Of a DNA stretch of 33,514 nt, positions 6,719-30,200 are shown in pieces; position 1 is the first letter of the stretch; each line of letters starts with the position of its first letter. This DNA is from a virus, in IMG/VR virus record IMGVR_UViG_3300009154_000151, positions 1 to 33,514 of that record; one strand, given 5' to 3'. The translations under genes were made by a program, and so were the position numbers. Under the pieces are notes generated by a model. It was not told where the DNA came from. It was given only the letters and a program-made list of their open reading frames with translations, and did not search any database.

Positions 6719-6835
6719 CCAGAAAAAACAACGGAGGAGGGGCTACGGGCTGCGGTGCGCTACCGCATAAAGCCCGTGGCTACCTACGGGATCAAGGACG
6801 GCCTTATCGGAGTGTGGTTCCTTCGGCGACTTTGA
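6704..6835 (+). CDS. Possible small protein at the convergent junction (43 aa)
   Basis: The C-terminal part (EEGLRAAVRYRIKPVA then TYGIKDGLIGVWFLRRL) has the amphipathic pattern of a real small folded protein. The frame is open back into the primase gene, so the start is unclear. GTG at 6704 has GGGAG ten bases upstream; GTG at 6755 follows GGAGGAGGGG (6733-6742) at 12 bases and would give 26 residues. The stop at 6833-6835 makes it overlap the end of the minus-strand polyvalent gene by 32 bases, tail to tail. No family is recognised. It may instead be a chance frame over the terminator region. Confidence 0.4.
   Translation: MPTLNPEKTTEEGLRAAVRYRIKPVATYGIKDGLIGVWFLRRL
6742..6780. terminator. 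Two-tier hairpin between the convergent arms
   Basis: An outer 10-bp stem (6742-6751 with 6771-6780, one G-T wobble on the plus strand) encloses a second stem GCGGT/ACCGC (6752-6756 with 6762-6766) and a 4-base bulge (ATAA). It lies 24 bases beyond the stop of the minus-strand polyvalent gene. Read in the minus direction, a T6 run appears about 15 bases after the stem, further than in a classical terminator. It is positioned to stop both converging transcripts. If the small plus-strand gene is real, the hairpin is inside it. Confidence 0.45.
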
Positions 6836-9800
6836 GGAAGTTGCGCGCTTGCGCAAGCTGGTTGATATACAAGTTCTCCAGCGCCGCGTCCTTTTGTTCG
6901 GTGGTCATTTCTGGCGAAGCTTTGATCATGCGCGACTGCTTAGCCATTTCCCCAAGCGTCTTCTTCATGTAGCCGGCCATGCTCGATGCGGCCAAGACCG
7001 AGGCATTTTCATTAGCGAACCGGGCGGCTTCTTCAGGCTTACCATCTTGCAGCAGTTTGTTGTACGCACCCTTGGTCTGCTGAATTTCCTCGATGAGCTT
7101 GTACGTAGCATCGAGCGCGCCGCGACCTTCAGTCGTTTGGAAGAGTGAACCAAAGAGCGGGACTTCTGACAGTTTCATAGTGGGCTGCGCCACGTTCGCC
7201 GCCTCGGGCGCACGCAGAAAGACGTTGGCCATCTGGGTTATCGCCATGCCCACACCGCCGGTATAGCCACGGATCAGGTAGTCAATCTCAATCGGAGATA
7301 ACCCACCCACACCGCCGAGCATTTTGGCAATCTCAGTACTGTTCGCACGATAGCGGTACTGCGGCAGGATCTCTTTTTCGTGCGGCGATTCAATAGGCCC
7401 AGAATAGAACGAAGAACCAAGCGCCACCTCAACACCCGGTTTAAGCGCCTGCGGCATAGCGAACGGCTGCGACTGACTAAGCAGACGACCAATAGCCTCA
7501 AGTGCCGGTCCAGCCTTTTCATCACCCGCCGCCATATTAACAATCGCTTCAGGCAGCGCTTTGAAAAGGAACCCGACCTCGTATGGGATAGGGATTTTTA
7601 TCCAGTTTTCTTTGGTCAGCCCCAGCGTTGGCAACCACCAGTTGCCGTAGCGCTCCTCGGGCTTGGCGCGCTTATAGTCCTCGTCATCCTGCATGATCGC
7701 GGCGTACGCAAGGGACGACACGGCGAGCATCGTAGCCCGAGCCGCGAACCGTTGGGCAACCTGAAGTTTGTCTGCGCCGGGTAACTCCCCACGCATCGAG
7801 CGATACAAAACATCCAAGCTCTGCATCTGCGAGTGCATAAACGGTGTCACGCTTGCCAGCAAATACATACTGGGGGACGTACCTCGGCGGCTAAAGTTCA
7901 TCGACTCAAGCGTGCGCATCAGCGCCTGCTGGTGGGACATTCCCTTCTTGATCGAGTCTTCGTAGATTACCTGCCGAGTAGCCGCATCGGACTGCTGGGC
8001 AATCGTGTCGAGCTTAGAGAACGCCCGTTGCAGACTCCACTTGCCGGCGGTCAGGTCTTCCAAGAACTTAGTCATGTCGCGGGCGTCGCCCACTAAGACG
8101 TTGCTGCTGGTTGCGCCTGCACGCTGAAGCCGCTGCGCGGTGGTGTCTTTGCCTGTGGCCATCTTGGCCAGCGTTGAGAACGAATCAAGGATTGGGACCG
8201 TGCTAGTCCCGTTCTGTACCCACGCCGCCACAGGGTCACGCACAAGCTGACGGAACATATAGAGCGGATTGCGAACCGTAAACTTGCGGAAGATATCCCC
8301 CGGCACACCAAGCATGCGCACAATCGCGGGCATCGCAAGCTTAATACCCTCCAGCCCCTCAACGATCATCTGCGCAGGGATGCCGTACATGTCGTTATCA
8401 ATGATCGCGTGATGCTCAACGCCATGCACTCGGAAGTGAACGACGTTGTCTGCGTACGGACCCTTAGACGCTACGATTCTGCTGGCAATCCCTAGATCCT
8501 TGAGCACAAACGCCGTATCCTTGACGGTCTGGTTGCGCATCGCCATGTTAATCAGCATGTTGGTGTTCTGGATTGCGCTGGTAAACACGGGCAGAATCTG
8601 CTCACTATCGCCAAGCAGTTCCTTTAGGCGCGGCTCGTCTTTAATGTTGCCGATACGGATAGCGCGGCGCTCGTCTCCGGTCTCCATGCGGATGTTGCCA
8701 TCCTTATCTACGCGGTAGAACGGCACGTAGGTGATCTGCTTGAGTTCCTCAGCCTTTTGTTTGGACATAGCGCCGGTCTGAACCAAGAAGTCCAGCAGCC
8801 CAGCGTTGTAGTTTTGATAAATCTTTTCGGCTTCTTTGAACGCGGCTTCGTCAGCCTTGTTCTGCTTCAGGTGCGCAAGCACAGCCTTGTATTCGTTCTC
8901 GGCCTCAACCGGATTATCAAAGCGTAATTTGTTCCAGCCAACTTGCTCCGCGCGTTTGCCTGCTAGGTAAACCGTGAATGCGTTCTCACGCTCTTGTTCC
9001 TTGTAGCCCTTGGCTTTCTCCAGCGCCTGCGCCATGCCGACCAGTGTCGGGCCACCGGCTTCGTTCTCGTAGAAGTACTCAACGCCGTTCTTTGTTTTTT
9101 CGCTACGGACGCGCGGTGGGCCGCTGGTAATTGTCTGTCCGGCGATATCGCTACGCTGCTGACCAAAGCGCAGGAAGTACATCAGGTTCTGAGCACGGAG
9201 CGCATCAATAACTTTAGCGTCAACGCCCTTAGTAACCGCCGCAACCAACGGCGCGTACTGGTCAAACACACGCAGACGAAGCTTCAACGCGCGGGTATCG
9301 GTCTTGTCTTTGATCCCAGCAAGTGTAGCTTCCCGGCTACTAGCGCCGGTCAGTCCCGTTACGAGCGACATCAAATCATCGACAGCACTTGTGCGCTGAG
9401 CAACGACAGACTTGGTGGGCTTGCGTTCGCGGTAGAGGACATCGTTTGCCTTGGCTGCTGGCGTACCTGTTGGTGCAAAGGCTTCTGCCAGCGCTGGGTT
9501 GCGCATCTGCTCCCGCGTAGCTGCGTCTTTTTCTCCAGCATTGTTTAGGATGTCCGCAATTTCTTTGTTTGAAAGAACGCGATTGACCTTGAGTGCGCCA
9601 CCTATAATCCAAGCACCGCCCTGCATCTTGCTGGTCTTGAATCGGTAGTGCCCGCCAACCGGCACGCGGTCGCGAATGTCTCTAGTCTTTTGCGTGTCCG
9701 CCACATCTTGCCAGTTAACATCTGCGGGGATTTCCACTTCGGCCCACACGCGGTCGTCCGCCATTTGGTTTTCTTTTGTGCGTAGGTGCGGAGCCATCGG

Positions 9801-12800
9801 CAGTATGCCGGCGTGCCAACCCGGACGTTCTGCAAACCCCTTAGTTGGAAGGTGCTCTGCCGGGACCCACTCGCCAATAGCCGTGGCTTCGTTTTTCCCA
9901 ATAAACAGCGGGTAAATTTTGCCGGGTTCGTTTTTCTTAACGCGGAAAATTTTGTACGCTTTTATGGTTTTTACGGGTTCTTTGAAGTTTTTTTGCCCGC
10001 GCCCAGAATAGAGCGCCTCTACGCGGTTGTGCCCCTTTATGTCTGCTTCGGTTGGTGCAATCTTTGCCAGCGTCCGCACCGTCTCGCTTGGCTTGGTGGT
10101 CACGCCGTGTACGTACTTGTGCGAGTCGCGGATCAGGCGAATGATCTCGGACTCCCCGATTGGTGCGTTCCTCCAGATGCCCCACTGCCGCAGCTTAGTG
10201 CGGATAAGATTCACCAAGCGGTGCATCCACGTTAGGGACACATCATTCTCGGCGCGCTCGGCGATGCTCTCCTCGGTCGCTACGTCCTGCGATAGGTTCG
10301 GGTTACGCTGCATCCGCGCGTTGGCCTCGGCACGGACCTGTTTACTATTCTGATAGATCGCCCGCATCACTGCCGGGTACTGCTTATCCAACACCCCACG
10401 CAGACCGAAGTGGCCTACCAACTCGTGAGCGATCGTCTTGCCAGCATCTCGCGCGTCAATCAGGTTGTCGCCAACCATGTAGATTGTTTTGGTAGGCGGG
10501 TGATACATACCCGGCGCGCCCTGCGTGCCATCGCGCTCCATCTGCGCCTGAATCTCGGGAGGCAGCTCAGTAACAGACTGCACCGTCTCGATCTTGGGCG
10601 CTACTGGCAACTCACGAAACGGCGCGATGTGGGTATCAACCTCTTCAACGCGCATCCCAACCGCAGGCTTCTCGCCCTGCTCACGGAACAGAGACCCTTG
10701 AGCTTCTTGTGCCAAGCTACCTTGCGGTACAGGCGCAGCCTCGGCAGGCGCAGCCTCGGCAGGCGCAGCGGTTTCTGGTTTAGTTTGCGGTTGTTCAACA
10801 GCCTCGGCAGGCGCAGCGGTCTCTGGCTTAGTCGGTGTAGCCGGCGTCTCTATAGCAGGTGTGCCCCTTAATACTTCACGCTGGTTGCGTTTGTTTAGCG
10901 GGGAGACGACCTTTTCTTTTTCAAGTTGTTGGATTAACGCAGCGGCTTCTGGGCGTTTGATGCCTAGCCCTTCCGCAATATGGCTGACCGTGGCTTTGTT
11001 GGTCTCCAACACAAACTTTTTGGCCTGCTCAAGCGGCGTATTTTCAAACAGTTCTGGCTGAGCTAACTGCGTCTCAGGCACTGCCGCTGGGATTATTTGC
11101 GGCGCGTACTTTTTCTGGAACTGCTCTTCTTCGTAGCGCTCAACGTCATAGGGCGTAGTAGCAACCGTTCCATCAGGGAACACATACTTGGGCACTGAGA
11201 GTGGTTTGTTCTCAAGCAGGGGGACTTGCGGAGTTGTTGGTTCAGCCGGTTCTTCAGTCGTTGCTGGCGTTGTAGTTTCGGGCTGTTCAACAACCGCAGT
11301 ACTGGGCGCTCGCCCCCCAACAAGTTTGCGTTTATCTTGAAGAGCGGCAAGTTTTTCTGCCTGCTTGCGCACGGCATCGAAGTCGCCCACTTCAGCGGCC
11401 TTGGCCATTTCCTTCTGGGCGGTGTCAAGTTTTTTATCTAGCGCAACGGCGGTCTCCGTCGTACCGCCGGCAGCCTCAACAGCCTTGCCTGTCTGGTCGA
11501 TATACTTAGTCAGCGCTTGCCACTGATCGTGCAGCGTAATGATTGCCTGCGGATCGCCGCCGGCTGCGGCCTCCTGCATTTGAGCACCAATATCGTCGCG
11601 CTGTTGGTTTAGCGCGTCATACTGGTCCATCAAGTCTGTGACTGTCGGTGCCGTAAATACCGGCTCAGGTGCAGCCGCAGGCTGTGCTGCTGCCTGTTCT
11701 GCTTGGCGCTGGGCAACCAGCGGCTTAATTAGGTCTTCGCGTTGGGTGTAGTCTCTGCGTAGTGGGCTAAGAACGCTCTCCATAAAGTCTGACGCCGCTT
11801 CGCGTGCGCCAGCCGTGGACTCTTCCCACTGCTCATACTCTTTAGATTTTTTCTTTTTGTTTGGCGCTGCCGGTATGGCGTCCTTTAGCCGTATCGCTTC
11901 TTCCTTGGCAGCAGTGTACTCATCAAACAGTTTGAGCAGGTTCTCAGGGCGATTCTTTTCTGCTTCTTCTGCGGCGTAGCGGGCGTCGGCGGTTTCTTTT
12001 TGCTGTTTGTCATAGCGGGCCTGCATGCCCATGCGCTCAAACTTGCGCCCGGGTAGCGCGATTGTGCCACCAAGTACAGCGCCGCCAATAAAGTTATCAA
12101 AGTATTCTTTACGCGCTTCGGGGTCCGCAATGTTCAGCCCAGCCTGCGCACGTTCAAGCACTTGCTGCGCAGATTCAGTCAATCCCTCAACACCCATAGC
12201 CTTGCCGGTGGCAAGCGAGTAATCAACCGCTGCTTTCTTTAAGCCCTGCTCGGCAATGTTTTTTGCTACGTTCTCGGATACGCCCAGCACTTTGCTGAGT
12301 CCCGGCATCATACGCAGCGACACCGTATCGAGCGCGGCCTGTGGAATTGCGGCCAGCGCTGCCGCACCCAGATCAGTTTCTTTAAGAGACTTGCCTTCTT
12401 CTACTTGGCGCGCAAGGTTCGACCCAACAAACTGCCCAGCAGACGTAAGCCCAGTAGCTCCAGCACCCGCCGCAAGCGCCGCCAACCCGGTAATAGGAGC
12501 AGCCTCAACCGCAGCACCAGCTAGGAATGGCGCGGCCATATACGGCAGTGCGCCGCCAATTAACTCCTTAGTCTTGAGCAGGGGCGCTTCTAGCCAGCCC
12601 TCTTCAGTCGGCTTGTAGGCTTTGGTTTTCTGTTGCTCGTAATACTTCTGCGCTTCCGCTTCATCCATCAAGCCGAGCTTGCCGGCTGTGAGCGCAGCCT
12701 CGCCCTTCATCGTCTGGAACGACCCCTTGAGCGCGGGTATCAGACCCTTTTCTTCTGGCGCTTTGGGCGTCTGCGGCTTAGTTCCGAACGCATCCGGGTA

Positions 12801-12893
12801 CAACTGCGACGCGGCATAGAAGCCGTCCATCGCGTCCTGTCCGGGCTTTAGTTGAAAGTACGACCCGTCAGGCAGTTGAATGTAGCCGGCCAT
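6804..12893 (-). CDS. Giant polyvalent virion protein with metallopeptidase motif and LPD38-like C-terminus
   Basis: A 2029-residue multidomain protein. It has a hydrophobic Gly/Ala-rich segment (about 111-150) that could meet membrane and charged coiled-coil stretches (about 290-400 and 420-520). A winged-helix-like segment follows at about 620-675 (ATVSHIAEGLGIKRPEAAAL), resembling FtsK gamma. Next comes a Pro/Ala/Glu linker with short repeats, then a peptidase-type motif HELVGH (823-828, HExxGH), an uncharacterised globular module (about 955-1115, containing RPGWHAGILP and WAEVEIP), and a long helical C-terminal region. The stretch GNWWLPTLGL and KIPIPYEVGFLFKALPEAI near 1750-1775 is typical of LPD38 of polyvalent phage proteins. 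Such proteins are packaged and enter the host with the DNA. It is the last gene of the virion operon, two bases after the previous stop. The role as an ejected effector or ejectosome component is inference. Confidence 0.85.
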   Translation of the reverse strand: MAGYIQLPDGSYFQLKPGQDAMDGFYAASQLYPDAFGTKPQTPKAPEEKGLIPALKGSFQTMKGEAALTAGKLGLMDEAEAQKYYEQQKTKAYKPTEEGWLEAPLLKTKELIGGALPYMAAPFLAGAAVEAAPITGLAALAAGAGATGLTSAGQFVGSNLARQVEEGKSLKETDLGAAALAAIPQAALDTVSLRMMPGLSKVLGVSENVAKNIAEQGLKKAAVDYSLATGKAMGVEGLTESAQQVLERAQAGLNIADPEARKEYFDNFIGGAVLGGTIALPGRKFERMGMQARYDKQQKETADARYAAEEAEKNRPENLLKLFDEYTAAKEEAIRLKDAIPAAPNKKKKSKEYEQWEESTAGAREAASDFMESVLSPLRRDYTQREDLIKPLVAQRQAEQAAAQPAAAPEPVFTAPTVTDLMDQYDALNQQRDDIGAQMQEAAAGGDPQAIITLHDQWQALTKYIDQTGKAVEAAGGTTETAVALDKKLDTAQKEMAKAAEVGDFDAVRKQAEKLAALQDKRKLVGGRAPSTAVVEQPETTTPATTEEPAEPTTPQVPLLENKPLSVPKYVFPDGTVATTPYDVERYEEEQFQKKYAPQIIPAAVPETQLAQPELFENTPLEQAKKFVLETNKATVSHIAEGLGIKRPEAAALIQQLEKEKVVSPLNKRNQREVLRGTPAIETPATPTKPETAAPAEAVEQPQTKPETAAPAEAAPAEAAPVPQGSLAQEAQGSLFREQGEKPAVGMRVEEVDTHIAPFRELPVAPKIETVQSVTELPPEIQAQMERDGTQGAPGMYHPPTKTIYMVGDNLIDARDAGKTIAHELVGHFGLRGVLDKQYPAVMRAIYQNSKQVRAEANARMQRNPNLSQDVATEESIAERAENDVSLTWMHRLVNLIRTKLRQWGIWRNAPIGESEIIRLIRDSHKYVHGVTTKPSETVRTLAKIAPTEADIKGHNRVEALYSGRGQKNFKEPVKTIKAYKIFRVKKNEPGKIYPLFIGKNEATAIGEWVPAEHLPTKGFAERPGWHAGILPMAPHLRTKENQMADDRVWAEVEIPADVNWQDVADTQKTRDIRDRVPVGGHYRFKTSKMQGGAWIIGGALKVNRVLSNKEIADILNNAGEKDAATREQMRNPALAEAFAPTGTPAAKANDVLYRERKPTKSVVAQRTSAVDDLMSLVTGLTGASSREATLAGIKDKTDTRALKLRLRVFDQYAPLVAAVTKGVDAKVIDALRAQNLMYFLRFGQQRSDIAGQTITSGPPRVRSEKTKNGVEYFYENEAGGPTLVGMAQALEKAKGYKEQERENAFTVYLAGKRAEQVGWNKLRFDNPVEAENEYKAVLAHLKQNKADEAAFKEAEKIYQNYNAGLLDFLVQTGAMSKQKAEELKQITYVPFYRVDKDGNIRMETGDERRAIRIGNIKDEPRLKELLGDSEQILPVFTSAIQNTNMLINMAMRNQTVKDTAFVLKDLGIASRIVASKGPYADNVVHFRVHGVEHHAIIDNDMYGIPAQMIVEGLEGIKLAMPAIVRMLGVPGDIFRKFTVRNPLYMFRQLVRDPVAAWVQNGTSTVPILDSFSTLAKMATGKDTTAQRLQRAGATSSNVLVGDARDMTKFLEDLTAGKWSLQRAFSKLDTIAQQSDAATRQVIYEDSIKKGMSHQQALMRTLESMNFSRRGTSPSMYLLASVTPFMHSQMQSLDVLYRSMRGELPGADKLQVAQRFAARATMLAVSSLAYAAIMQDDEDYKRAKPEERYGNWWLPTLGLTKENWIKIPIPYEVGFLFKALPEAIVNMAAGDEKAGPALEAIGRLLSQSQPFAMPQALKPGVEVALGSSFYSGPIESPHEKEILPQYRYRANSTEIAKMLGGVGGLSPIEIDYLIRGYTGGVGMAITQMANVFLRAPEAANVAQPTMKLSEVPLFGSLFQTTEGRGALDATYKLIEEIQQTKGAYNKLLQDGKPEEAARFANENASVLAASSMAGYMKKTLGEMAKQSRMIKASPEMTTEQKDAALENLYINQLAQARNFLKVAEGTTLR
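10731..10769. repeat. 15-bp tandem repeat inside the polyvalent gene
   Basis: AGGCGCAGCCTCGGC occurs at 10731-10745 and 10746-10760 and starts again at 10761; a further partial copy lies near 10803-10818. It encodes PAEAA-type units in a low-complexity linker between the winged-helix-like and peptidase-like segments. In-frame unit changes would only lengthen or shorten the linker. Confidence 0.75.
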
Positions 12894-12895
12894 AG

Positions 12896-15052
12896 TTATT
12901 GCGGGTTGCGGACAAGAGCGTTTGCGGGGAGTTTATCTACCACTTTACCTGCACCAAACATCGCCAAGTACTCGGGATACGTGAGCATCCTCTCTTCTGG
13001 CTTCATTGGATTGGATTTCCATTCCGTCAAATACTTAGAGTAAGCAGCTTGCGGATTGAATTTTTCGCTATTAATCAGCGTAAGCCCCGCTTTTATTTGT
13101 TCTGGCGTACCCGTTTCTCCGGGCTTAGCGCCGCCCAAAATAGCCGCAGCCCGTAGTGACTCTGGTGGTAGCGACGCTTTAAACAAATCGGACTGCCTTT
13201 GTGCGGCAATCTGCGCATTAGACCTTGTGGTTGCTCCCGCTTCACGAAGCTGCGTATTGTACGCCTCGTTTTTCGCGTTAAAGTCTGCAATCTTGAACTG
13301 GTTATACACGTTTTCCGAGTGTTGGAATGCGGACAGAGCGCCTTGAGCCTTATTGCCCCAAGCCGTTTGTGCAATCTGCGCCTTAAGGTCTTCTGCCCTA
13401 TCCGAAATTTGGTCGGCTCGCGTGCGCAATGCAATCTCTCGATCAAAATCTCCGCGCTTGGCGGCATCCTGCGCTGCTTCAATGGTGACCCGCATCTGCA
13501 TACGCTTCTGCGCAAGCTCTTTAAACTCTTTGTTAGCCTGTTGAAGTTCTTTAGCCCCAACGGTAGCGCCTGCCCCCATATTGCGTAAGAACGCGCCTAG
13601 TCCCTTGCCGCCGTAAGGCGACTCCATCATCTTGAAACCGGCCATCATCAACGCCATGCCTCGGGCTTTTTCTTTTTCCCCAATCTCGTTGAACTCTTCA
13701 GTATCAAGCTTTTTAGCCAACTCTTGGAAAGGTAGCCCGGGCTTATTAAATTTTACAAACTGCGCCGTTTCTTCCGCCCGCCCAAGCGCTTCTGCTCTGG
13801 CTTTGTCTGCCTGTGCGTAAAGATCTTTAGTGTCAAAAAACTGACCCACGTTTTCCATTGCTTTCGCTGCTGTGAGCTTATCGGGCATAGCTAATGTCGG
13901 CGGTCCTTTCATGCCTGCACCAATCCCAGCTCCTGCGCCAACACTCAAACTTGGGCGCCCACCACCACGACTAACTAAATCATAAATACCTGCATATGTT
14001 TGTGTAGGCGCAGCCGCAGCTTCTTCTCCAGCAGGTTTTACAAACGGCTGCGCATATTCGCCTACACCCAAACCGCGCCCTTGCGCTGGTTTAACGCCGG
14101 CCGGCAGAGGCAACTGCCCAGAAGCCGCCGCTTTTTGTTCTTGCTGCCTAATGGCGTCCATGTATGGTGTTGCGCTGGATCGGTCGCCGCCATAAAAAGA
14201 TTCTGGCAAATACGGCATGGGAACACCGGCAGCGCGTAAAGGGCGAGTAACCGCCGTCTCAAACGCTCCTGCAACCCCCCGCCCGGGCAAGGTCAGCACA
14301 TCTTTGGCGGCAGCATACGCTTTCCCCAGCCCACTCCCCATTGCCAAACGATCTTTTGCACGCTGCGCTTTTTCTTGCGCGTCCGCTGAATCATCCCCCA
14401 TCAAGTAGTCATACATTGGTGGTTGATTTGCCCACAATTCTTGTCCAGTAAGCGCACGTTCAGAAGTCGGCGTCATAGAAATATTAGGCGCGCGCACAAC
14501 GCTAGTCTCAGCACCATCGTACCGGGGCACACCACCCTCGGCATAGCCAACAGCCTCGTCGCCATCCGCGTACCCAGCGATCCCGCCGTCGGCCATACCC
14601 TGCATATTTGGAGCAGGCAAAGCGGCGATACCCGGCTGGGCCGCGCTAGGACCGGAAGGTGGAGCCTGTGGAACAGGCGGAGCGGCAGGGGGCATCTGCA
14701 TTCCCGGCCCCCCTTGTGGGGGCATACCCTGCGGTGGCATCGGACCTTGTGGTCCTCCGGGTGGCGGCATGGGCGCCCCACCTTGTCCTCCCATCCCGGG
14801 AGGAATCATGCTTTGAGGACTAAGCGCGGCTACGGCTTGCGAAATAACTTTCGGTTGCTCGCGCCCAGTCATCAGCGCTTGCAGACGCTGCATCTCTTCT
14901 TTGCGATCCTTGTCCACCTGCATGGCGAGGCTGACGTAGATGGCGTTATCTTGATGCGCAGCAGCGAACTGTTGAAGCTGGGGGCCGTCCATCTTGGACA
15001 GCATGGAGTGAACTTTGGCGATGTCTGGGTGGGCGACGCTTTGCAAAGACAT
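12896..15052 (-). CDS. Putative internal virion (ejection) protein with Pro/Gly/Met-rich linker
   Basis: A 718-residue protein. The first 75 residues form a helical domain (PDIAKVHSMLSKMDGPQLQQF). Residues about 80-150 are a Pro/Gly/Met-rich linker. MADGGIAGYADGD follows at 153-165, a Gly-rich motif that I associate with phage virion proteins. The C-terminal half (about 430-640) is highly charged, with helices such as KELQQANKEFKELAQKRMQM that suggest a coiled coil. AAGG of the TAAGG stop-and-ribosome-site junction precedes the ATG at 15052. It sits between the hendecad protein and the polyvalent protein, the place a T7 gp15-like internal protein would occupy. This functional reading comes from layout only; no enzyme motif is visible. 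Confidence 0.65.
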   Translation of the reverse strand: MSLQSVAHPDIAKVHSMLSKMDGPQLQQFAAAHQDNAIYVSLAMQVDKDRKEEMQRLQALMTGREQPKVISQAVAALSPQSMIPPGMGGQGGAPMPPPGGPQGPMPPQGMPPQGGPGMQMPPAAPPVPQAPPSGPSAAQPGIAALPAPNMQGMADGGIAGYADGDEAVGYAEGGVPRYDGAETSVVRAPNISMTPTSERALTGQELWANQPPMYDYLMGDDSADAQEKAQRAKDRLAMGSGLGKAYAAAKDVLTLPGRGVAGAFETAVTRPLRAAGVPMPYLPESFYGGDRSSATPYMDAIRQQEQKAAASGQLPLPAGVKPAQGRGLGVGEYAQPFVKPAGEEAAAAPTQTYAGIYDLVSRGGGRPSLSVGAGAGIGAGMKGPPTLAMPDKLTAAKAMENVGQFFDTKDLYAQADKARAEALGRAEETAQFVKFNKPGLPFQELAKKLDTEEFNEIGEKEKARGMALMMAGFKMMESPYGGKGLGAFLRNMGAGATVGAKELQQANKEFKELAQKRMQMRVTIEAAQDAAKRGDFDREIALRTRADQISDRAEDLKAQIAQTAWGNKAQGALSAFQHSENVYNQFKIADFNAKNEAYNTQLREAGATTRSNAQIAAQRQSDLFKASLPPESLRAAAILGGAKPGETGTPEQIKAGLTLINSEKFNPQAAYSKYLTEWKSNPMKPEERMLTYPEYLAMFGAGKVVDKLPANALVRNPQ

Positions 15053-15061
15053 GGTTCTACC

Positions 15062-17740
15062 TTATCCCATCTGAGCGATTGCGAGTGCAGGCAACCCGCG
15101 TGGCTGACGAATCATACCGCCTTTAGCCTTAAACAGATTGGCCGCACCAATCGCAGCCGTACCAAAACCCGCAGCCTGCGAAGCCAAACTTGGCGGCTGT
15201 TGATATATAGCCTGCGTCTGCTGAGATAGCGGCACTCCGCGCAACACGTTTGATAGCTGCCCAATCTGTTGGAATGGGAAGTTTTGCTGGTTGAGGAAGT
15301 CGTTGTAGTTCTGCGTGAGCTGTTGCTGTACGTAGTTTTGAGCCTGCACGCCCATTTGGTTCTGCGCGTTGGCAATGTTTGTGGCCTGCTGGTTGTACAG
15401 CCCGCTCAGGTTGCCGTAGTTCTGCATTCCCTGCATCCCAGCCTGAAGCGCTTGCAGCCCAAAGCCTGCGCCGTATTGGTTTGCTTGCTCTTGTAGCTGA
15501 TTAGCTGCCTGACCATATTGCGCCTGATTAGCGAGCGCGGCCATCTGTTGCCCGTAACCGTATTGGTTTGCTGCCTCTTGTTGCTGCTGCGTAGTCATCC
15601 CGGCCTGCTGATTAGCAAGCGCCGCCTGCAAAGCCTGTTGGTTGTACAACTGTTGTACGCCCAAACTAGCCGCAAGATTTTGTTGCCCCGTCGTAAGCCC
15701 AGCCTGCTGGTTTGCAAGGTTTGCTTGTTGTAGCATCTGAGCGTTTTGTAGCGCAGCCGCCTGCCCAAACTGCCCCTGTGTTAGCCCGTACTGTCCAGCC
15801 AGCGCTTGATTAGCGAGCGCAACTTGGTTAGCCGCTTGTTGGTTGGCGGCGTTTGCTGCCTGATTAAATTGCCCTTGCTGTAGACCGTACTGCGCGCCGT
15901 ACTGCTGGTTAGCCAGCGCCGCCTGTTGCAAATTAGCAAGGTTAGCCATTGCCATCTGCTGGTTCATCTGCCCCTGTTGCAGACCGTACTGCGCACCGTA
16001 CTGCTGATTATTAGCCGCCGCCTGTTGCGCGAGCTGAGCGTTCTGTAGAGCAGTCGCCTGATTCATTTGGCCTTGTTGTAGGCCGTACTGTCCTTGCAGT
16101 CCTTGGTTAGCAAGCTGCTGCTGTTGCGCTAGCTGGGCGTTTTGTAGCGCGGTGTTATAGGCTTGCTGTGCGTTGAATTGTCCCGTCTGCATGCCCGCCT
16201 GCTGGTTAGCAAGCAAAGCCTGAAGTCCGGTCTGTTGATTTAGTTGCTGCGCCTGCAAGCCTGTTTGTGCGCCGAGACCCTGCGTCTGGAGCAGAGCGCT
16301 AAGATTCTGCACTCCGGTCTGTTGTTGCACGCCTTGATTAGCCAACGCCACCTGCAAAGCTTGTTGGGCGTTCATCCCCTGCGCTTGCAGATTGTTGGCC
16401 TCGTTTTGGACTGCGGCCTGTTGTTGGTTGTTAAGATTTGCAAGCGCTAGCTGCGTGCCAGTTTGTGTGCCAAGCTGCTGTGTGCCTAATTGCGCAGCTA
16501 AGTTTTGCTGTCCTACTGTAAGTCCGGCTTGTTGGTTTGCTTGTTGCGCAGATAGTCGTGCCTGCTGTTCAACATTGAATTGTTGTTGCGCTTGCTGGTA
16601 TGCCGACTGTAAACCTTGAGCTTGGATGTCGCCTTTCTGTGTAGCCAGATTGCGAGCAGCCTCGGCATTCTCAATAGCTTGACGCGACCCACCAAAAGCT
16701 CCGGCTTGAGCAAACTGAGCACCGCGCTTGGTCGATTGGATGTCTGCTTGGCGTTGCGCTTCGCGCTGCTGGATGTCCACCACGCTTTGCATGTATGGAG
16801 ACATGTACGCCGCAGCCGCGCTGGGGGTCGCAAAAGACTGCGTGCTTACTTGCTGCGCCGGTCCCATTGCATACTGTTGCAAGTTCGGGGCGTAGTTAGT
16901 AGTGGCAGCAGCTATTTGGTTGGCAGATACAGAAGGTAGCCCCGAGACATCCCGCGCGGCTTGCATTTGCAGATCGCGCAGAGGCAGAGCATTCACACGC
17001 TCCGCGCCAACCGCCTGATAACCAAGGCTTTGTGGGGAATAGTTAAGCTGCTGCCCGGTGTATGTAGGCGCTGCGTTTAGTTGCGTAAGATTGGCTTGCG
17101 CCGCCTGCATCTGGGGGGAAGCAGCAAGAAGCGAAGCCAGCCCTGTCTGCCCACTAACAGTGGGCGCTGCCCCCATCTGCGCGGCCTGCATTGCTTGAGC
17201 TGTGGCTGTTGGGGAGCCACCCAGTTGTGCTGCGTTTGCGGCTGCGCCTGCGACGTTCTGCGGCTGCTGCATTTGAAAATACTGCGCAGCCGGCGTGCTT
17301 ACATTTTGGTAACCAAACTGCCCCGGTCTATACGCACTTGGGGTTGCGTACTGGTTGCCATAAAAGCTGGGGGCGTACGCGGACGTACCTGCCTGCGCCG
17401 CCATGTTGTACATGTTCTGGAGTGTGTTACCTGCCTGAGCGCCAAGCCCCATGTTCTGGAGCGTGTTATATGCTTGCTGGCTAAGTACGTCCGGGCCGGC
17501 AATTCGCTCGCCGCCGGTATATGTTTGGTAGGGTTTAAGCCCGGTAATAACGGGCTGCGCGTCTGGAGTACCCGCAGGTACTATTTTGCCAGTGGCGTCT
17601 TTATATATCGGTTGATTGTCTGGACCGAGCTGATAATTATAAATCGACCCCTCAGTGACGCCAAGCAAGCGCTCGACCTGAGCGCGTGCGTAGTCCGGGA
17701 TCGTTGTCTGCGACTGGATAATCTGCTGTGGATCGGCCAT
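15062..17740 (-). CDS. Gln/Ala/Asn-rich hendecad-repeat virion protein
   Basis: An 892-residue protein of unknown family, extremely rich in Gln, Ala and Asn. The N-terminal part contains TIPDYARAQVERLLG and TGGERIAGPDVLSQQAY, and residues about 320-370 (QREAQRQADIQSTKRGAQFA) are a conventional charged helix seen in other phage structural proteins. From about 372 to 745 the chain is built of consecutive 11-residue units, most clearly as six 33-residue superunits from 515 to 712, with consensus endings LANQQ. Such hendecads form long, nearly straight helical bundles. The C-terminus carries KAKGGMIRQPRGLPAL. AAGG supports the ATG, nine bases after the previous stop. It probably is a structural or ejected virion protein; a rod, tube or length-setting role is inference. 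Confidence 0.7.
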   Translation of the reverse strand: MADPQQIIQSQTTIPDYARAQVERLLGVTEGSIYNYQLGPDNQPIYKDATGKIVPAGTPDAQPVITGLKPYQTYTGGERIAGPDVLSQQAYNTLQNMGLGAQAGNTLQNMYNMAAQAGTSAYAPSFYGNQYATPSAYRPGQFGYQNVSTPAAQYFQMQQPQNVAGAAANAAQLGGSPTATAQAMQAAQMGAAPTVSGQTGLASLLAASPQMQAAQANLTQLNAAPTYTGQQLNYSPQSLGYQAVGAERVNALPLRDLQMQAARDVSGLPSVSANQIAAATTNYAPNLQQYAMGPAQQVSTQSFATPSAAAAYMSPYMQSVVDIQQREAQRQADIQSTKRGAQFAQAGAFGGSRQAIENAEAARNLATQKGDIQAQGLQSAYQQAQQQFNVEQQARLSAQQANQQAGLTVGQQNLAAQLGTQQLGTQTGTQLALANLNNQQQAAVQNEANNLQAQGMNAQQALQVALANQGVQQQTGVQNLSALLQTQGLGAQTGLQAQQLNQQTGLQALLANQQAGMQTGQFNAQQAYNTALQNAQLAQQQQLANQGLQGQYGLQQGQMNQATALQNAQLAQQAAANNQQYGAQYGLQQGQMNQQMAMANLANLQQAALANQQYGAQYGLQQGQFNQAANAANQQAANQVALANQALAGQYGLTQGQFGQAAALQNAQMLQQANLANQQAGLTTGQQNLAASLGVQQLYNQQALQAALANQQAGMTTQQQQEAANQYGYGQQMAALANQAQYGQAANQLQEQANQYGAGFGLQALQAGMQGMQNYGNLSGLYNQQATNIANAQNQMGVQAQNYVQQQLTQNYNDFLNQQNFPFQQIGQLSNVLRGVPLSQQTQAIYQQPPSLASQAAGFGTAAIGAANLFKAKGGMIRQPRGLPALAIAQMG
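15506..16627 (-). repeat. 33-bp/99-bp periodic coding repeat (11-residue hendecads)
   Basis: The section encoding residues about 372-745 of the 892-residue protein repeats every 11 codons, with a stronger 33-codon superperiod. Units beginning at residues 515, 548, 581, 614, 647 and 680 are each exactly 33 residues, and earlier units at 405, 438 and 471 keep the same phase apart from one extra 11-mer at 504-514. At DNA level the copies are diverged but recognisable (for example GTACTGCTGGTTAGC-like segments), consistent with old tandem duplication. Confidence 0.85.
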
Positions 17741-17749
17741 GACTATTCC

Positions 17750-18949
17750 TTATGCGGGCAGCAGGCGTTCTGCGTTTGTGTCGGCGGCTACTTGATGTTT
17801 GCCTACCGTCTTTCTTCGTGCTCGTTGAACGCGGTCCATCATGGCGTACAGTTTACGCGCTCCTGCCTCGGTTGAGCCGTTGCCAATCTCAGACACGATG
17901 CGCGCCGGCACAACAAACTCCCCATCGGCTAGCCGCGCTGGTTGACGATCCCCAATAGTTGCCGGGATGTTGTCTGACACGCCATCACCGGGGCCGCGAA
18001 GCAAGCGCCCGCCATCAGAGTAGCCGCCCAACGAACCCAAACCGCCCTGATTAAACGCAACTACGCCACCCGTAGCAGCCTTGTACGGCGGAGCCACAGT
18101 GTATTCATCGTTAAAGAATCGGCGCTCACCAACATCGCTGTATGGGTCTGTGTTTTGCCGGCGATTAAGAATGATTGGCCGCACGTAACTTGTGGGAGTT
18201 ACCGACGACAGCGAAGGCATGTTTGTTTTTTGATTAGCTTGAATACTAGATATGACCGGCAACGTCGTGGCTGCTAGAACTCCTGCGCCTAAATACGGGT
18301 TGCCACCGCCCAAAGTACTAAGCGGAGCCTTCATAAAATCCTTTGCGCCAGCCACTAGTCTGTCCGTAATACTTGGCGTGACTGCGTTTGCTCCAGCGCC
18401 AGCTCCAGCGTTGCCTATAGAGTGCCATTGCGACGCACCCGACACTTGATTGGCGGCCCCACTTGCGGCATCCGTAGCAGCTTGCGTAGGAATCCCCGGC
18501 GCTGCTTCTACAATTGGTGCCGCTGCACCTGCACCTGCACCTGCACCAGCCGCACCGAGCGATCCTGCAAGACTTGCCCCACCATAAGCGCCTAACCCCG
18601 CCATGAGACCTTTTTGCAAACTGCCCGTAGCCAGAGCGCCAACGCCGCCAGTAAGCAAACCTGCCGCAGCCGCGTTGGATATGCCACCCATCATAGTGCC
18701 AAGTCCGGGCACAAAGTAGTTAAGCGCAGCGCCAGCCAACGGAGCAGCAACAGGTTTAATTGCTTTCCACGCCTGACTGAATATGTTTGCTTCCGGCAGC
18801 CCCGTGTGTGGGTTAATAGTCAACGAACCGCCGTGCGCCATAGCCAAGCGTTGGAGTCCGTGAACCTCGTCGGGCGTTACGTGCATAAGCATCGAGTCGC
18901 CGTTGCGTCCATAGGACGCCATATGCTGGGCAAGATTATGTAGGCTCAT
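17750..18949 (-). CDS. Putative small internal virion protein with hydrophobic Gly/Ala segment (399 aa)
   Basis: The frame is open six codons further upstream, but ATG at 18949 starts two bases after the previous stop and gives MSLHNLAQHMASYGRNGDSM; TTGGA lies just upstream. The N-terminal 60 residues contain HVTPDEVHGLQRLAMAHGGS, then comes a long Gly/Ala-rich hydrophobic stretch (about 75-145) able to span or insert in membrane. The C-terminal 120 residues contain ATGGVVAFNQGG, RGPGDGVSDNIPATIG and LADGEFVVPARIVSEIG, a conserved pattern I know from other phage virion proteins. The size and hydrophobic N-terminal half resemble a gp14-type ejection protein, a guess based on layout and on being first of the four presumed internal proteins. 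Confidence 0.65.
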   Translation of the reverse strand: MSLHNLAQHMASYGRNGDSMLMHVTPDEVHGLQRLAMAHGGSLTINPHTGLPEANIFSQAWKAIKPVAAPLAGAALNYFVPGLGTMMGGISNAAAAGLLTGGVGALATGSLQKGLMAGLGAYGGASLAGSLGAAGAGAGAGAAAPIVEAAPGIPTQAATDAASGAANQVSGASQWHSIGNAGAGAGANAVTPSITDRLVAGAKDFMKAPLSTLGGGNPYLGAGVLAATTLPVISSIQANQKTNMPSLSSVTPTSYVRPIILNRRQNTDPYSDVGERRFFNDEYTVAPPYKAATGGVVAFNQGGLGSLGGYSDGGRLLRGPGDGVSDNIPATIGDRQPARLADGEFVVPARIVSEIGNGSTEAGARKLYAMMDRVQRARRKTVGKHQVAADTNAERLLPA

Positions 18950-18951
18950 GA

Positions 18952-19245
18952 TTATCCAACTTTCCAATTTGTGCCATCTGAATATACAGGCACTTTAGTT
19001 GACCCGCCACCGGCTACAGTGGAGCCAAACGTAGACACAGAAGAGTCAACAACAAATCCCCTAGCACCTACACCCGACACAACCGCGCTTGATAACTGGG
19101 CTACCGTTAAGGGAGTACTTGGTCGATTAACCGCGCTATCAACTTGATTGAAGTACAACCGTAAAATGTTGGTAAGCTCGTTAATGTAGTTTTGATCGTA
19201 CGCAACCGTTGAGTTGGGTAGGCGCGGGGCTACGATATTACTCAT
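18952..19245 (-). CDS. Small conserved virion-associated protein (97 aa)
   Basis: The N-terminus (NSTVAYDQNYINELTNILRLYFNQVD broken by helix caps) is a helix that probably oligomerises. The C-terminal half (VSTFGSTVAGGGSTKVPVYS then DGTNWKVG) is beta and glycine rich and resembles the repeat end of fibre or tail attachment proteins. The ATG overlaps the stop of the 703-residue gene by four bases (ATGA), so the two are translationally coupled. Similar short proteins occur next to tail genes in other phages; a tail or neck role is likely but not shown. Confidence 0.65.
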   Translation of the reverse strand: MSNIVAPRLPNSTVAYDQNYINELTNILRLYFNQVDSAVNRPSTPLTVAQLSSAVVSGVGARGFVVDSSVSTFGSTVAGGGSTKVPVYSDGTNWKVG

Positions 19246-21353
19246 CTGCGACCATCATTGCGAATGTCGAGTCTGGGAGCGCCGAGCTGCCACTGCAACC
19301 CAAGCTGGTTACCTTCAATCTTAAACGCTAACTGGCGTCCGCGCACCCGGGTGTAGATCTGCCCCGTGTACTGTTCAATTGGATATGTAGCTGTGCGAGT
19401 AGATGTGGCGTAGGCCGTGCCGCCTTCTGATAGTGGGTTATTGTACCCTGAACCGGAGTTCTGCATGGGGTACAGTGTCATGGTTACTTGAGGCGAAGCT
19501 GCGGTAGATCCGTCAAATTTAAGGTCTGGCAACATGCGCCACACAAACCCAAAGTTGTGCCCGTCGTCAATATCAAACTCAGACGACAGAATATACGAGT
19601 CAATAGGAGCGCCCGTGATTGAGTCGGCGCAATCATCTACACCGTTTTCGTGCCACACAAGATTGTTGGAATAAGTCGCCGCAATCGGGTAGTCATTCAG
19701 CCCGCTATCAATCCAAGCGGTGCGCCCCATCGTGCCGTAGTACCAGACGTTTTCTAGGTAGTTGTAGATAACGTACCTGTCAACCACATTGCTGCTGGCC
19801 GAGCAGTAGAACCACCAGACCTCGTTAAAGCCTTCGTTGGTGCTACAAAAAACTTGGTCAAATTGGCTCTTATTTATGTTCTCAAATACATATTGCCGCA
19901 AGTCGCAGCTAAGCGTCTGAACCCGACCGTCGTATTTGTAGAACTTATCTATGCCCATCCAGTACGTAATACCAGAAGCAAGCGCCGTAGCATTTGGTCC
20001 GGCGATAGAAATGTTGTCACCAAGGAGCTGCGAACTCCAGACGTAGGGCGGCCCAAGATACTGCAACGAATATACGGAACTGTCGGTAAGCACAACTATT
20101 TCTTGACGGCTTTGTACGGTCGTAACTATTTTTGAGCCGTGCGACAACCGCACACTACCTGCCTGATTAGTGATTGCCGGATACCATGTGGTCAATGAGT
20201 CTTGGTCTGACCAACGAATTAACATCGGGTCAAGAATTGTGCTGCCGTAATCATTTGTCCCAAACATCAAGACAAACCGGCTGGCGTCTGAAACGGTAAA
20301 TGTGTTTTGATAGAGCGGGGTGTAGCCGTCAGACCCCCCTACGCTTGCAAGAGGGTACCCGCGAGCGGCGATATAATGCGTACCGGACTGAGATCCAGAA
20401 GTGTTAATTGCGGCTCCGCCGTAGGTGGCAGACAGGTTGCATGTAGCGCCGCTAGCATTAGTTATATAGTAAACAGTGCCCGGGACTAAGCCAGTAGGCA
20501 AATACCCAGTTGTAGTCAGAGTCACGGCGGTGCCATTATCCAGCGCGTACCCTAAACTTAACACCGCAGGACTAGCAATCGTTACGGTAAATGCCGTGTT
20601 TTGGTATCCCGTGTTAGCGTCCCAGTAATACAGCGGCGACCCTCGTGGGCCATAGAGCAGATTCTGCCCATAATTCATCTGGTTCCAGAGCTGGATTGCG
20701 TTGACGGATGTGCCGCCATTTCCCCACGTGCCAGAACCCCAAGCCCCTGCGCCCCAACCAGTAAGCGGCACAACATATTCTGGCCCGGTGTTCACTTGGT
20801 AGGAGATGTAAACCGTGCCGCCGCCAGTGGTGCTGGACGATGCTGTACCCGCAACAGAGATTGTGTATGAGTTTGTGCCCGCTGAAAGGATTGTGTACTG
20901 CCCCGCAGCAATAGTCACGCCCCCAACCGTGGGAGCCGCGCCGGGATAGTATATGGTTATGTAGCTCCCAGTTGTAGCGCCGTTAGCAGTATCTGCGACG
21001 GTGACGGTTGTGTACCCGCCAGAGTTAGTTGCGGTGCTTGTGGTGAATGGGTTGGTCAGCGTGCTGGTCTTGCGGATTGGGGTAATGTCGTAGTAAGCGC
21101 CGCCGTTCTGGATGTAGAACTTTAGGTTTGTGCCGACGCCCATCAAGGTCTGAGCACCAAGCGTCACCCAAGACCAGAGTGAGCGGCACACACCTAAAAA
21201 GGTATTGGCCGAAATTTGCAACCAACCGCCAATTTTCTCGGGCGTGCCTTGCCGGAAACGGATCTTGTCGGACTCGTAGTAGCCGCCCTCGTTGGTGTAG
21301 CGCGTATTTTCCCTGTTAACTCCGGGCTTAAATAGCAACTTCTTTAGGGGCAT
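19242..21353 (-). CDS. Large tail/neck structural protein with inserted beta modules
   Basis: A 703-residue beta-rich protein beginning MPLKKLLFKPGVNRENTRYT and GGYYESDKIRFRQGTPEKIG, a signature I associate with a widespread structural protein of uncultured podovirus-like phages. Regularly spaced strand motifs, for example WSDQDSLTTWYPA and YKYDGRVQTLSC, suggest a propeller-like fold. Two Thr/Gly/Ser-rich segments, about 101-187 and 253-330, look like inserted Ig- or adhesin-like modules. It likely joins head and tail or forms the tail hub; DNA-stabilisation proteins have a similar gene position, but I cannot show that homology. The ATG overlaps the holin stop as TAATG. Confidence 0.7.
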   Translation of the reverse strand: MPLKKLLFKPGVNRENTRYTNEGGYYESDKIRFRQGTPEKIGGWLQISANTFLGVCRSLWSWVTLGAQTLMGVGTNLKFYIQNGGAYYDITPIRKTSTLTNPFTTSTATNSGGYTTVTVADTANGATTGSYITIYYPGAAPTVGGVTIAAGQYTILSAGTNSYTISVAGTASSSTTGGGTVYISYQVNTGPEYVVPLTGWGAGAWGSGTWGNGGTSVNAIQLWNQMNYGQNLLYGPRGSPLYYWDANTGYQNTAFTVTIASPAVLSLGYALDNGTAVTLTTTGYLPTGLVPGTVYYITNASGATCNLSATYGGAAINTSGSQSGTHYIAARGYPLASVGGSDGYTPLYQNTFTVSDASRFVLMFGTNDYGSTILDPMLIRWSDQDSLTTWYPAITNQAGSVRLSHGSKIVTTVQSRQEIVVLTDSSVYSLQYLGPPYVWSSQLLGDNISIAGPNATALASGITYWMGIDKFYKYDGRVQTLSCDLRQYVFENINKSQFDQVFCSTNEGFNEVWWFYCSASSNVVDRYVIYNYLENVWYYGTMGRTAWIDSGLNDYPIAATYSNNLVWHENGVDDCADSITGAPIDSYILSSEFDIDDGHNFGFVWRMLPDLKFDGSTAASPQVTMTLYPMQNSGSGYNNPLSEGGTAYATSTRTATYPIEQYTGQIYTRVRGRQLAFKIEGNQLGLQWQLGAPRLDIRNDGRR

Positions 21354-24056: not shown

Positions 24057-24545
24057 TTAAATTCTGGCGTGGTCGCCGTGGTAAAGCAGTCTGGCTTCAT
24101 CAGCCACCAGACACGCAAGTTCAAAATCATCAAACACACCAAGGTGCTTTACTTTGTTTTGGAACTGTACTCTAGCCATCCATTTTTGACAGGGCTTGCT
24201 CCAAGCAACACCTTTGTGCCCAGACGTACTGTCTGAACGCAATTTTGAGTTACACGCATTAAACGACTTATTAGAAGCACGCAAATTTTCAATTTTATTA
24301 TTGTTTGTGTCGCCGTCAATATGGTCAATGATTTTTGGTATATATCCGAAGTACATCAAAAACACAATTTGATGTACATAAATTCGTTTTTTATTAATAG
24401 TGATTTTTTTGTAGCCATGCCCTGTCTTGGTTCCGGCCTCCAAACCAACTCCAGATTTGCGATGCCGTTTGCTTCGTTGTTTCCAAAACAATACCCCGTC
24501 CTTATGCTCAAATAGCAGACGCGCTTCTTCTTGTGTTAAGGCCAT
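24057..24545 (-). CDS. HNH homing-type endonuclease with AP2-like DNA-binding domain
   Basis: A 162-residue protein. The HNH core is around VHQIVFLMYFG (57-67) and DHIDGDTNNNKIENLR (74-89), followed by SFNACN (94-99). An AP2-like module occupies about 104-155 (SGHKGVAWSKPCQKWMARVQ then KHLGVFDDFE). This pairing marks mobile free-standing HNH endonucleases in phages. The gene is visibly richer in A and T than its neighbours and separates the tail fibre from small conserved genes, both suggesting insertion. Yet it begins with a TAATG overlap on the fibre stop, so it is expressed with the fibre. A 10-bp inverted repeat lies within it (24351-24377). Confidence 0.88.
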   Translation of the reverse strand: MALTQEEARLLFEHKDGVLFWKQRSKRHRKSGVGLEAGTKTGHGYKKITINKKRIYVHQIVFLMYFGYIPKIIDHIDGDTNNNKIENLRASNKSFNACNSKLRSDSTSGHKGVAWSKPCQKWMARVQFQNKVKHLGVFDDFELACLVADEARLLYHGDHARI

Positions 24546-27241: not shown

Positions 27242-30200
27242 TTAAATGTCCTGCCAGTTAGGCGTCTGACCAGTAGAAATTGTAGCCCAATTTGCGGTCT
27301 GCGTTGTGCCTATTGTAGCCCAATTTGCGGTCTGCTGGTCATCAATCGGTTCCCACAAAAGTCTAGCGCTAAACACTACCGTTCCGGTAGACGCTTCAGT
27401 AACCGCGATATTAAACGTACCAATGTTAGACGGCTGATCTTGCCCTGCCGCAGCCTCAGTAACTGCAATATTAAACGTACCAATGTTGCCGGAGGACTCT
27501 AGCGCCGACGCTACCTCATTAATGAGGGCCGTCATGAACGTAGTCGGAACTAGGGCTTCTAGCCCAGACGCAATCTCAGAAACAGAAAGGTTAAAAGTAA
27601 TACTAGGTGTTACGTTGTCTAACCCGGAAGCAGCCTCAGAAACAGAGTTGTTTGTGATTGTAAGTGAAAAGGCTGAATCGCTTCCAGCGGCTGATTCAGA
27701 AACGGAAATGCTAAAACTGCCAGTAGGAAAAACTTCGTCTAATCCAGAAGATAACTCTGAAACTAAAATATTAAAGTTTACAGTAGTGTCTATTTGGTCT
27801 TGGATAGAGCCTGTTTCATAAACACTAAGACTAAAATTAATTACATTAAATACCTCATCTAGCCCCGCGCCCGTCTCTAGTATATTAACAGTAAGTGTAC
27901 CAATAACAGATTGCAAATCTAATCCAGACGCAACCTCATCAATTACACCGTTAAAATTAAAGCCGCCGGATACAGACTCAATTCCAGATGAATTTTCGTC
28001 AATCAAGCTAGTAAAAATAAACCCGCCAGATATCGAATCTACCCCGGATGCAGATTCAGAGATTAATCCTACTAATGTAACTGCGCCCGCAGAAAAAATC
28101 CAACCGTACGAACCAAGATTTGTTGAGTTTGCTCCTGCGTACCATGTATTAGAAACCGGAAACGCGCGGACGTTTGAAAGCGAAAGATAATCAGGCGCGG
28201 TAACTCTAAAAGAACTGTTTAATATTAAAGTCCCCGGAGATGCTGCGCTTGTACCTGTAATAGACAATACCCTACCCGACGCGCCCGTTCCAGTGAACTG
28301 ACTTAGCGTTTGATAGGTTGAACCAAGGGCTATGGTTGCAGCTCCAGTCGCGCTATAAGTATTAGTAATGTCGTAGAACGTATTACTGTCATTAAGCGTT
28401 AACGAGCCAGCACCACCTTGGTTTAAAGTAGTTCCGGAGTAGGAGATTCCACCACCAGCGAAAGTTTTTGCAGAAGCACTGGTTAAGCTAATTGTGCCCG
28501 TGCCCGTAACGGTAAGGCCAGTAGACGTTGTGCAATCCCAAGCTGTTCCACTACCAGCAATAGTCCAAGTACCAGAACCTATTGCTATCGCTCTTGTAGA
28601 GGAATAAGAAGAAAGAAATGTAGAAGTTGAACCAGTAAGACTTACATTGTAGTTGTTTGCATTAAAAGTTCCGCTAGTAACAGTAAGAGCGCCAGTAGAG
28701 GATGTATAGCTTACTGCAAGGGCGTCTTGCAGTGTAACTGTTCCACCGGGGGAGTTAATAATTAATTTATTAGCAAAAGGTCTCCCTGCGCTTGTGATTG
28801 TTTGAGCCGTTCTTCCAACAAAAGTAATTGCCGAGGTACCGACATTAGTAACTCCAGCTCCATTAATCCAATTTCCTACACATGATATCCCTACAGAGAG
28901 TGATAATGTCATTGTATTACTTGTGCGGGCGGACATATCAATTGTCCCAATATACCAATTAGCACCACTGATTGCTATGCTTGCTCCTGAGTTTAAACCA
29001 GTTGACTGAAATACGGCAGTGTCTTGGGCAAGCGGGAAATTGTTTACCGCTGGAGTTCCTCCGCTTGATGTGGCCCATGCCGTAGAGTTCCAGCTTCCTC
29101 CTCCAGCAAGGTTCCAGTAAACCGTCTTTGGCGCATCAAACGTGATGCCGCTGTTTCCTTTTTCGTCACCAAGCCTTGTCCCGCTAATAGGCGCTGCCGC
29201 TCCGGTTATATTAATGTCGCCAAAATTAACATCTGTTCCAGAAAAAGCATTTACCGTTAAACTTATTGGAGTAGCAAATGTACCCGATCTAATAGCTGTA
29301 CGGTATGTTGCGTTCGTCCCAGCGGAACATGTTAAAGTTCCATTAATGGTTTGATTGTCATTAAATAAAATTGATTTGTAACCTACAGAGCTTGGTGCAG
29401 AAGAAGTAAAATTGTTAAATGTGTTTGCTCCACTAACGGTTAATTGAGTGGCGCCCGAAAAAGAAAAATTATAAAAAGACTGGTTGTTTCCGTTAAAGGT
29501 CGCACTACTTCCACTAGATGTTATTGTTGATGTGCCTGCGTTAAAAGAAAAATTTGCTCTATTTGCTTCAGAAGTTCCAAAACCTATTGGCGTACTTCCA
29601 GATAGTGTAACAGTGCTTGAGCCAAGGTCAATTGATCTTTGGTTATTGTATGGCGAGTTTAAAGAGGCGGAGGTTACGCTATAGCCACCGGAACTAAAAC
29701 CGCCCACTACAATATTAATGTTGTTTGTTGAATTATTAAAGGCAGAACCAAGCAACCAATTAGACCCTAAACCAAATATTTGTACGAGATTAGTTATAGT
29801 GACCCCATTTGTTGTTATTGTTTTCCCTGCCGTGTTTCCACAAAAATCAATATACCCCGTGCTTAAACCCCAACTTACGCCGGTTCCTGATATTACAAAG
29901 TTTCCGAAAATAGCAAGATTTGCTGACCCCGACAAGGAAAGAGTACCAGATGTTGGACCAGAAAATGTTAAAGCGCCACAACGTAACAGAGTGCCTGTAC
30001 AAGTTACGGTATATGAGGTTGCGTTAGATGCTGAATTAAAAATAACCGTATCGACAGATGTTGGTACAGAAGCGTTACCTGCCCCACCAGACGTAGCAGA
30101 CCAGTTCGTAGTGGTCGTTAAGTCCCACGTTCCAGAACCTCCGCGCCAGTACCGCGTTACAGGAGCCGGAGCAACGGTAAGAATAAAGTTAGTCCCGCCA

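Follow-up and report, generated by a model that had tools for sequence, protein, structure and literature searches.

A co-scaling N-terminal arm and hendecad array in a putative podovirus ejection protein

The periplasmic α-helical tunnel formed by gp15 of phage T7 is cemented by an extended ‘molecular tape’ that comprises residues 157-228 of gp16 (PMC8954989). The DNA pilot protein H of phiX174 also forms a tube; the part of the published account drawn on here (PMC7354561) describes 11,3 α-helices built on hendecads, a lumen lined by amide side chains, and a decameric structure of 17 nm in which three hendecads are followed mostly by heptads. In phage SU10 the needle protein gp18 is a trimeric coiled coil of 26 nm that carries a β-prism (PMC9509320).

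The protein described here is encoded on the minus strand of the window, by which is meant the whole stretch of viral DNA that was analysed (33,514 nucleotides; IMG/VR record IMGVR_UViG_3300009154_000151). An open reading frame at 15062..17740 (-) encodes a protein of 892 residues, the compact homologues of which match PHROG 4287. An N-terminal domain (residues 1-119; 17384..17740, -), predicted by AlphaFold2 with a pLDDT of up to 92 (31-70) and with helices at 85-95 and 101-119, is followed by an arm and then by a core block (residues 308-392, MSPYMQ...AGAFGGSR; 16565..16819, -) that holds nearly all of the residues that are invariant in the family. Beyond a hendecad array the chain ends in a C-terminal block (residues 746-892; 15065..15505, -) with a helix of constant length and an LRGxP motif.

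Over 500 relatives with a core alignment were found in IMG/VR, where 80 loci had been collected at first, including one contig that encodes a 100% identical protein. The aligned members are 39-82% identical to the window protein, and in 30 of 33 the internal spacing is constant (351 to 388, 37 residues; 757 to 837, 80 residues); the distance between the core and the C-terminal block ranges from 98 to 780 residues in the same set. PHROG 4287, annotated as ‘DNA ejection protein’, was matched by 52 of 55 relatives (best 5.8e-24), a PHROG name being an annotation and not a test. The window protein itself gave no PHROG match at E 0.01 and no Pfam match, and its membership of PHROG 4287 therefore rests on intermediates. 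A search of 17 contigs with the PHROG 4287 profile gave a single match, and none came from 50,697 phage records searched by tblastn with either the full protein or a compact homologue; the relatives in isolated phages were reached via the nozzle gene and via gp27 of phiM5. A scan of genome contigs returned a single MAG contig, and BFVD yielded nothing but phage relatives with no name or a vague annotation. In the PDB no match was obtained by family profiles or by Foldseek, the models searched being of low confidence. This includes T7 gp15 and gp16, which belong to strongly diverging families and gave neither a sequence nor a Foldseek match to the family with these low-confidence models; phiX174 H, whose sequence was matched by neither family profile with a meaningful E-value; and the needles of the SU10 and P22 type, which had no sequence match to the family profiles.

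The hendecad array and its helical phase

An earlier note on this DNA had claimed 11-residue units in one constant register over residues 372-745, which correspond exactly to 34 x 11 residues at 15506..16627 (-). This was borne out by a mod-11 profile, derived from the same array against which it was scanned, that holds its register from ~366 to ~770, and by autocorrelation of residue identity within 372-745, which gave the proposed 11-residue peak (z 4.5). The 33-residue superunit repeats more strongly than the single hendecad, with a lag-33 autocorrelation of 0.41 (z 11.8) and further peaks at lags 66 (z 9.1) and 44 (z 5.1). The six superunits described in the note as perfect are so in register, but the identity between them is only ~41%. 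The summed residue-identity spectrum has its top at 3.667 residues (8.5, as against a maximum of 2.9 in 300 shuffles), and the autocorrelation lags track multiples of 11/3 also when multiples of 11 are excluded (p 7e-8). The expected Fourier peak of hydrophobicity at 3.67 residues failed to appear, the Kyte-Doolittle peaks lying instead at 5.5 and 2.2. For an 11/3 helix these are the values to which the third and second harmonics are aliased, from which we infer that apolar residues form stripes on at least two faces of the helix.

In the mod-11 profile Leu falls mostly at positions 3 and 7, Gln at 4 and 11 and Asn at 9, with Ala and Gly elsewhere. The array contains no Pro, no Cys and four charged residues (one basic, three acidic), and Gln and Asn together make up 42% of it. 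Across 54 array-bearing homologues charged residues make up a median fraction of 0.043 of the array, as against 0.133 outside it. Structure prediction, which the note had put forward as a check, was carried out on the monomer with AlphaFold2 and 35 sequences; at low confidence (mean pLDDT 59, pTM 0.29) it rendered the array mostly as helix (351-452, 475-596, 604-734 and 746-834), broken at 453-474 and 597-603, where confidence was low, and with no strand within the array. A second AlphaFold2 model was likewise mostly helical and of low confidence.

Array lengths across the family were counted by alignment and HMM. The gap between the core and the C-terminal block varies from -41 to 733 residues in 133 non-redundant homologues and equals 0, 4 or 7 mod 11 in 107 of them (80%; 27% expected). 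Since the sequences are related, the count of distinct lengths is the safer figure, and here 30 of 50 fall in these three classes (p 1.2e-6). A periodogram of the 50 distinct lengths peaks at 3.665 residues (R 0.50; null 99.9% level 0.42). The classes 0, 4 and 7 keep the helical phase within ~33 degrees. A long straight hendecad helix is thus well supported by the 3.667-residue periodicity, by the helix prediction and by the conservation of helical phase across array lengths.

The array could also be seen as a low-complexity Q/A/N expansion that drifts neutrally by slippage and has no structural meaning, and the 33-residue units and the large differences in copy number among relatives would fit such a process. 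Slippage by units of 33 bp yields class 0 only, however, and classes 4 and 7 are beyond its reach. TRF found no tandem repeat of 33 bp or 99 bp in the DNA of the window. Together with the coupling to the arm described below, these results make neutral drift scarcely credible.

The pitch is not uniform in the family. In L038, L068 and L076 the autocorrelation pitch is 3.58-3.59, near 25/7 and not 3.667, and the hendecad family may therefore span different supercoils. In the family member of Roseobacter phage CRP-902 (L084:19329-20771) the hendecads are replaced by 18-residue repeats (RFGAEDVMRGQFMEDRQA), equivalent to 18/5 = 3.6 residues per turn.

The arm, its co-scaling with the array and its direction

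The larger finding, and the most informative feature of the protein, is the arm (‘tape’; residues ~120-307; 16820..17383, -), which the earlier note had missed. It is built on a 16-residue repeat (lags 32, 16, 48 and 64) with xP near one and the same column. Lags of 5, 11, 16 and 27 in the arm are off the α pitch, and Pro and Gly are present. AlphaFold2 placed nothing ordered at residues 120-299, leaving the arm almost devoid of predicted secondary structure and with no helix. The units are rich in Ala and Gln, and the motif AQMQAAQ looks compatible with a helix, which counts against the extended tape proposed below.

The length of the arm is coupled to that of the array. In 121 homologues N-terminal length and array length gave independent contrasts, computed on a tree of the core and C-terminal block, with r 0.948, a slope of 0.51 and agreement of sign in 56 of 58. 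Among 46 close pairs the arm changes with the array at a slope of 0.4842 (r 0.9999; 16/33 = 0.485), and for the 21 distinct differences among such pairs the slope is 0.4836 (0.4808-0.4852). Indels that are not whole units are matched as well, with array:arm values of 29:14 and 87:42, and arrays that repeat by 66 tend to have arms that repeat by 32 (Spearman 0.69, uncorrected for kinship). Both the near-perfect coupling to a separate repeat of another length and the matching of non-unit indels count against neutral drift. Errors may have entered through the assembly of metagenomic repeats, although the coupling of arm and array itself speaks against random ones. In the papers that were searched no account of such co-scaling came up.

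The lengths of the neighbouring genes behave differently. Contrasts of array length gave r 0.20 with the next gene and r 0.07 with the previous gene, a 405-aa gene immediately upstream (17750..18967, -) whose length does not track the array across relatives. This bears on the length gauge suggested in the earlier note, in which the length of the array would fix a particle dimension or that of a trans-envelope channel. That the array changes mostly by whole hendecads with its phase kept would be in agreement with a gauge. Two members, L006 and L009, are nevertheless 94% identical in aligned residues and differ by 253 residues in the array, the lengths of neighbouring genes are little or not correlated with it, and the sole scaling partner found is the protein's own arm. 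A gauge that measures neighbouring gene products is not supported, and a length gauge in general appears improbable.

If the array is a straight α-helix with a rise of 1.5 Å per residue, the ratio of the two lengths gives 3.10 Å per residue of the arm, as in a chain of extended or polyproline II conformation. The relative direction of the two segments can be read from the indels. Compared with L010, the window protein (L001) shows arm indels of -31, -5 and -33 and array indels of -66, -11 and -66; compared with L007, -11, -5 and -33 in the arm and -66, -11 and -22 in the array; and compared with L006, +16, +75 and -33 in the arm and -66, +88 and +66, and +33 in the array. In all three comparisons the indel lengths correspond if one of the two series is read backwards. 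Among 106 pairs that have several indels in equal numbers and are not independent, 78 are better fitted by the reversed order and 23 by the same order; by strict distinct patterns 15 of 23 are antiparallel and 8 parallel, which is not significant (p 0.21), with 11 of 14 antiparallel among patterns with several indels.

The 16:33 ratio is, as a matter of arithmetic, equally compatible with the geometry of a three-helix bundle, with the array folded into a hairpin, the arm added as a third helix and each layer taking 16 residues of the arm and 2 x 16.5 of the array, and the Ala/Gln-rich units of the arm would suit such a helix. A bundle predicts two symmetric array indels for every arm indel, whereas the observed pairs, for example the window with L010 and with L007, show a 1:1 correspondence in reversed order. 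The phase is moreover conserved across the full array, and the arm, with its lags off the α pitch, its Pro and Gly and its lack of predicted helix, speaks against a third helix. A bundle is therefore considered distinctly improbable.

Tests based on the similarity of repeats are clearer on direction than the strict indel test. The arm of L009 contains three SPTATSQAMQAAQMGL units and three SPTAIAQAMQAAQMG[AM] units, and these triplets face, in reverse, three array units that end in QFALSN and three that end in QIALAN; the profiles correlate with r 0.87 and 0.94 in the antiparallel and -0.06 and -0.19 in the parallel orientation. Local repeat profiles gave a mean r of 0.64 antiparallel against 0.24 parallel. 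Unit-similarity matrices for up to 19 proteins gave a peak mean r of 0.455 at most 6 residues from the register predicted by the window indels, and the correlation falls to ~0.2 one unit off register, the parallel maximum being 0.25. A parallel tape is disfavoured by the reversed order of the indels and by the weaker parallel similarity of units. Several of these sequence comparisons, though not all, thus agree in supporting an antiparallel correspondence of arm and array.

The cassette and a possible delivery rod

The 703-aa nozzle or packaged-DNA-stabilisation-type protein of the window (19242..21353, -; PHROG 3287) marks the virion as podovirus-like. The hendecad protein is followed by a 718-aa gene in the second position of an ejection-type cassette (12896..15052, -), often fused to it in relatives, and by a third cassette gene (6804..12893, -) encoding a 2029-aa polyvalent protein with LPD38 (E 2.7e-31). 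The latter also carries an FtsK_gamma-like domain (621-675; E 1.3e-8); a DNA-binding module of this kind is unusual in a protein presumed to be ejected. Elsewhere in the window a 1789-aa protein (27242-32611, -) had no match in Pfam and PHROG searches, and a 970-aa DUF927 protein akin to phage primase/helicase families (3772-6684, +) is encoded on the strand opposite the virion genes.

In isolated phages the relatives have a similar location, between the nozzle/stabilisation protein and the large genes with which the cassette ends. In the LUZ24-like phage Pa223 a 313-aa member (Pa223_056) precedes two virion structural proteins, and the annotation of the phiM5 relative (gp27) states that it was detected in the particle. 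An apparent in-frame fusion to the downstream cassette protein was seen in ~28 contigs (L012, L018, L020, L113 and others), and of the 31 members that carry long C-terminal extensions, 28 match the family of the next gene. The placement beside presumed ejection proteins, as the earlier note had it, is upheld by PHROG 4287 in the compact relatives, by gene order and by the fusion to the next gene. Its position in the cassette, its PHROG name and this fusion make it likely that the protein takes part in genome delivery.

We propose that the chain would leave the N-terminal domain as an extended tape (~120-307), probably turn at the far end of a rod, where the conserved core (308-392) would lie, and return as a single straight 11/3 α-helix (~369-757; 388 residues) that would end at the C-terminal domain, at the same end of the rod as the N-terminal domain. 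Tape and helix would run antiparallel in a fixed register of 16 tape residues per three hendecads, which in the window protein may be written array = 427 - 2.0625 (arm - 280). Arm residue 120, the end of the ordered N-terminal domain, maps to array residue 757, the start of the C-terminal block. At 0.15 nm per residue the 388 residues would give a rod of ~58 nm, and the family would span 15 to 117 nm (98 to 780 residues). Taken alone, a straight rod with a co-scaling antiparallel tape is judged quite probable. The tape may contact the helix within or between subunits, and several copies may form a rod or tunnel, rich in Gln and Asn and with hardly any charge, which would help to carry DNA across the host envelope and which the tape would cement as the gp16 tape does the T7 gp15 tunnel. 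A narrower proposal, that extended units of 16 residues and helical units of 33 residues pair 1:1 in antiparallel and have co-evolved, so that an intramolecular tape templates or zips a delivery tunnel of 15-117 nm, is advanced tentatively, the case for it falling a little short of even. The whole statement, that the protein opens a podovirus ejection-type cassette and forms an antiparallel tape and helix rod or tunnel that aids DNA delivery, is somewhat favoured.

A straight rod of 58-117 nm is too long for a typical podovirus head. It would thus have to form on ejection, be bent inside the head or lie outside the virion, and of these formation on or after ejection seems probable. The external alternative would place the same helix-plus-tape rod in a trimeric fibre or tail needle, its length being the reach through surface layers, and such a rod would be free both to exceed the head and to vary in length among close relatives. 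Peptidase_S74 is present at the C-terminus of phiM5 gp27 and of DB2 gp18, a relative in an Ochrobactrum phage is annotated as a tail fibre and others as chaperone, features that are usual in external trimeric fibres, and the SU10 needle gp18 is numbered directly after the nozzle protein gp17. The domain is nevertheless absent from the window protein and from all 55 metagenomic members, and the phage already has a tail fibre with Peptidase_S74 at its C-terminus (805-858) encoded at 24545-27232 (-). The common fusion to the next cassette gene and the match of 52 of 55 relatives to an ejection-protein PHROG also argue against a fibre, and we consider this reading rather unlikely, while taking it seriously.

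The delivery rod, if correct, would extend the tape-and-tunnel idea of T7 to a modular form in a group of phages known mainly from metagenomes, and would make the length of the rod testable against host envelopes. The equal physical length of two segments of one protein over a large range of sizes is deduced from sequence alone, the arm:array ratio fits the geometry of an α-helix and an extended chain, and a rule for the lengthening of straight protein rods is suggested.

Comparison with described systems

The compact members of PHROG 4287 (phiM5 gp27, Pa223_056 and others) share with the window protein a homologous AGAFGGSR core, the C-terminal block and a gene position ahead of larger virion genes, but their arm is short and their hendecad array slight or absent. 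Tail tape measure proteins also place long repetitive helices in a virion protein; the window protein differs in its podovirus context and gives no sign that its length sets that of a tail. The needles of SU10 (gp18) and of the P22 type resemble it as long coiled-coil proteins that adjoin the nozzle protein in gene order. With phiX174 H it has in common the 11,3 hendecad helices and an amide-rich composition (42% Gln and Asn in the window array), the role of H being genome delivery, although H, in the part of its description considered here, has no tape and no variation in unit number. The nearest working analogue is T7 gp15/gp16, in which a hexameric helical delivery tunnel is combined with an extended tape and the ejection genes gp14, gp15 and gp16 are clustered in order. 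The window protein would differ from that pair in that tape and helix belong to one chain, are both built of repeats and scale together.
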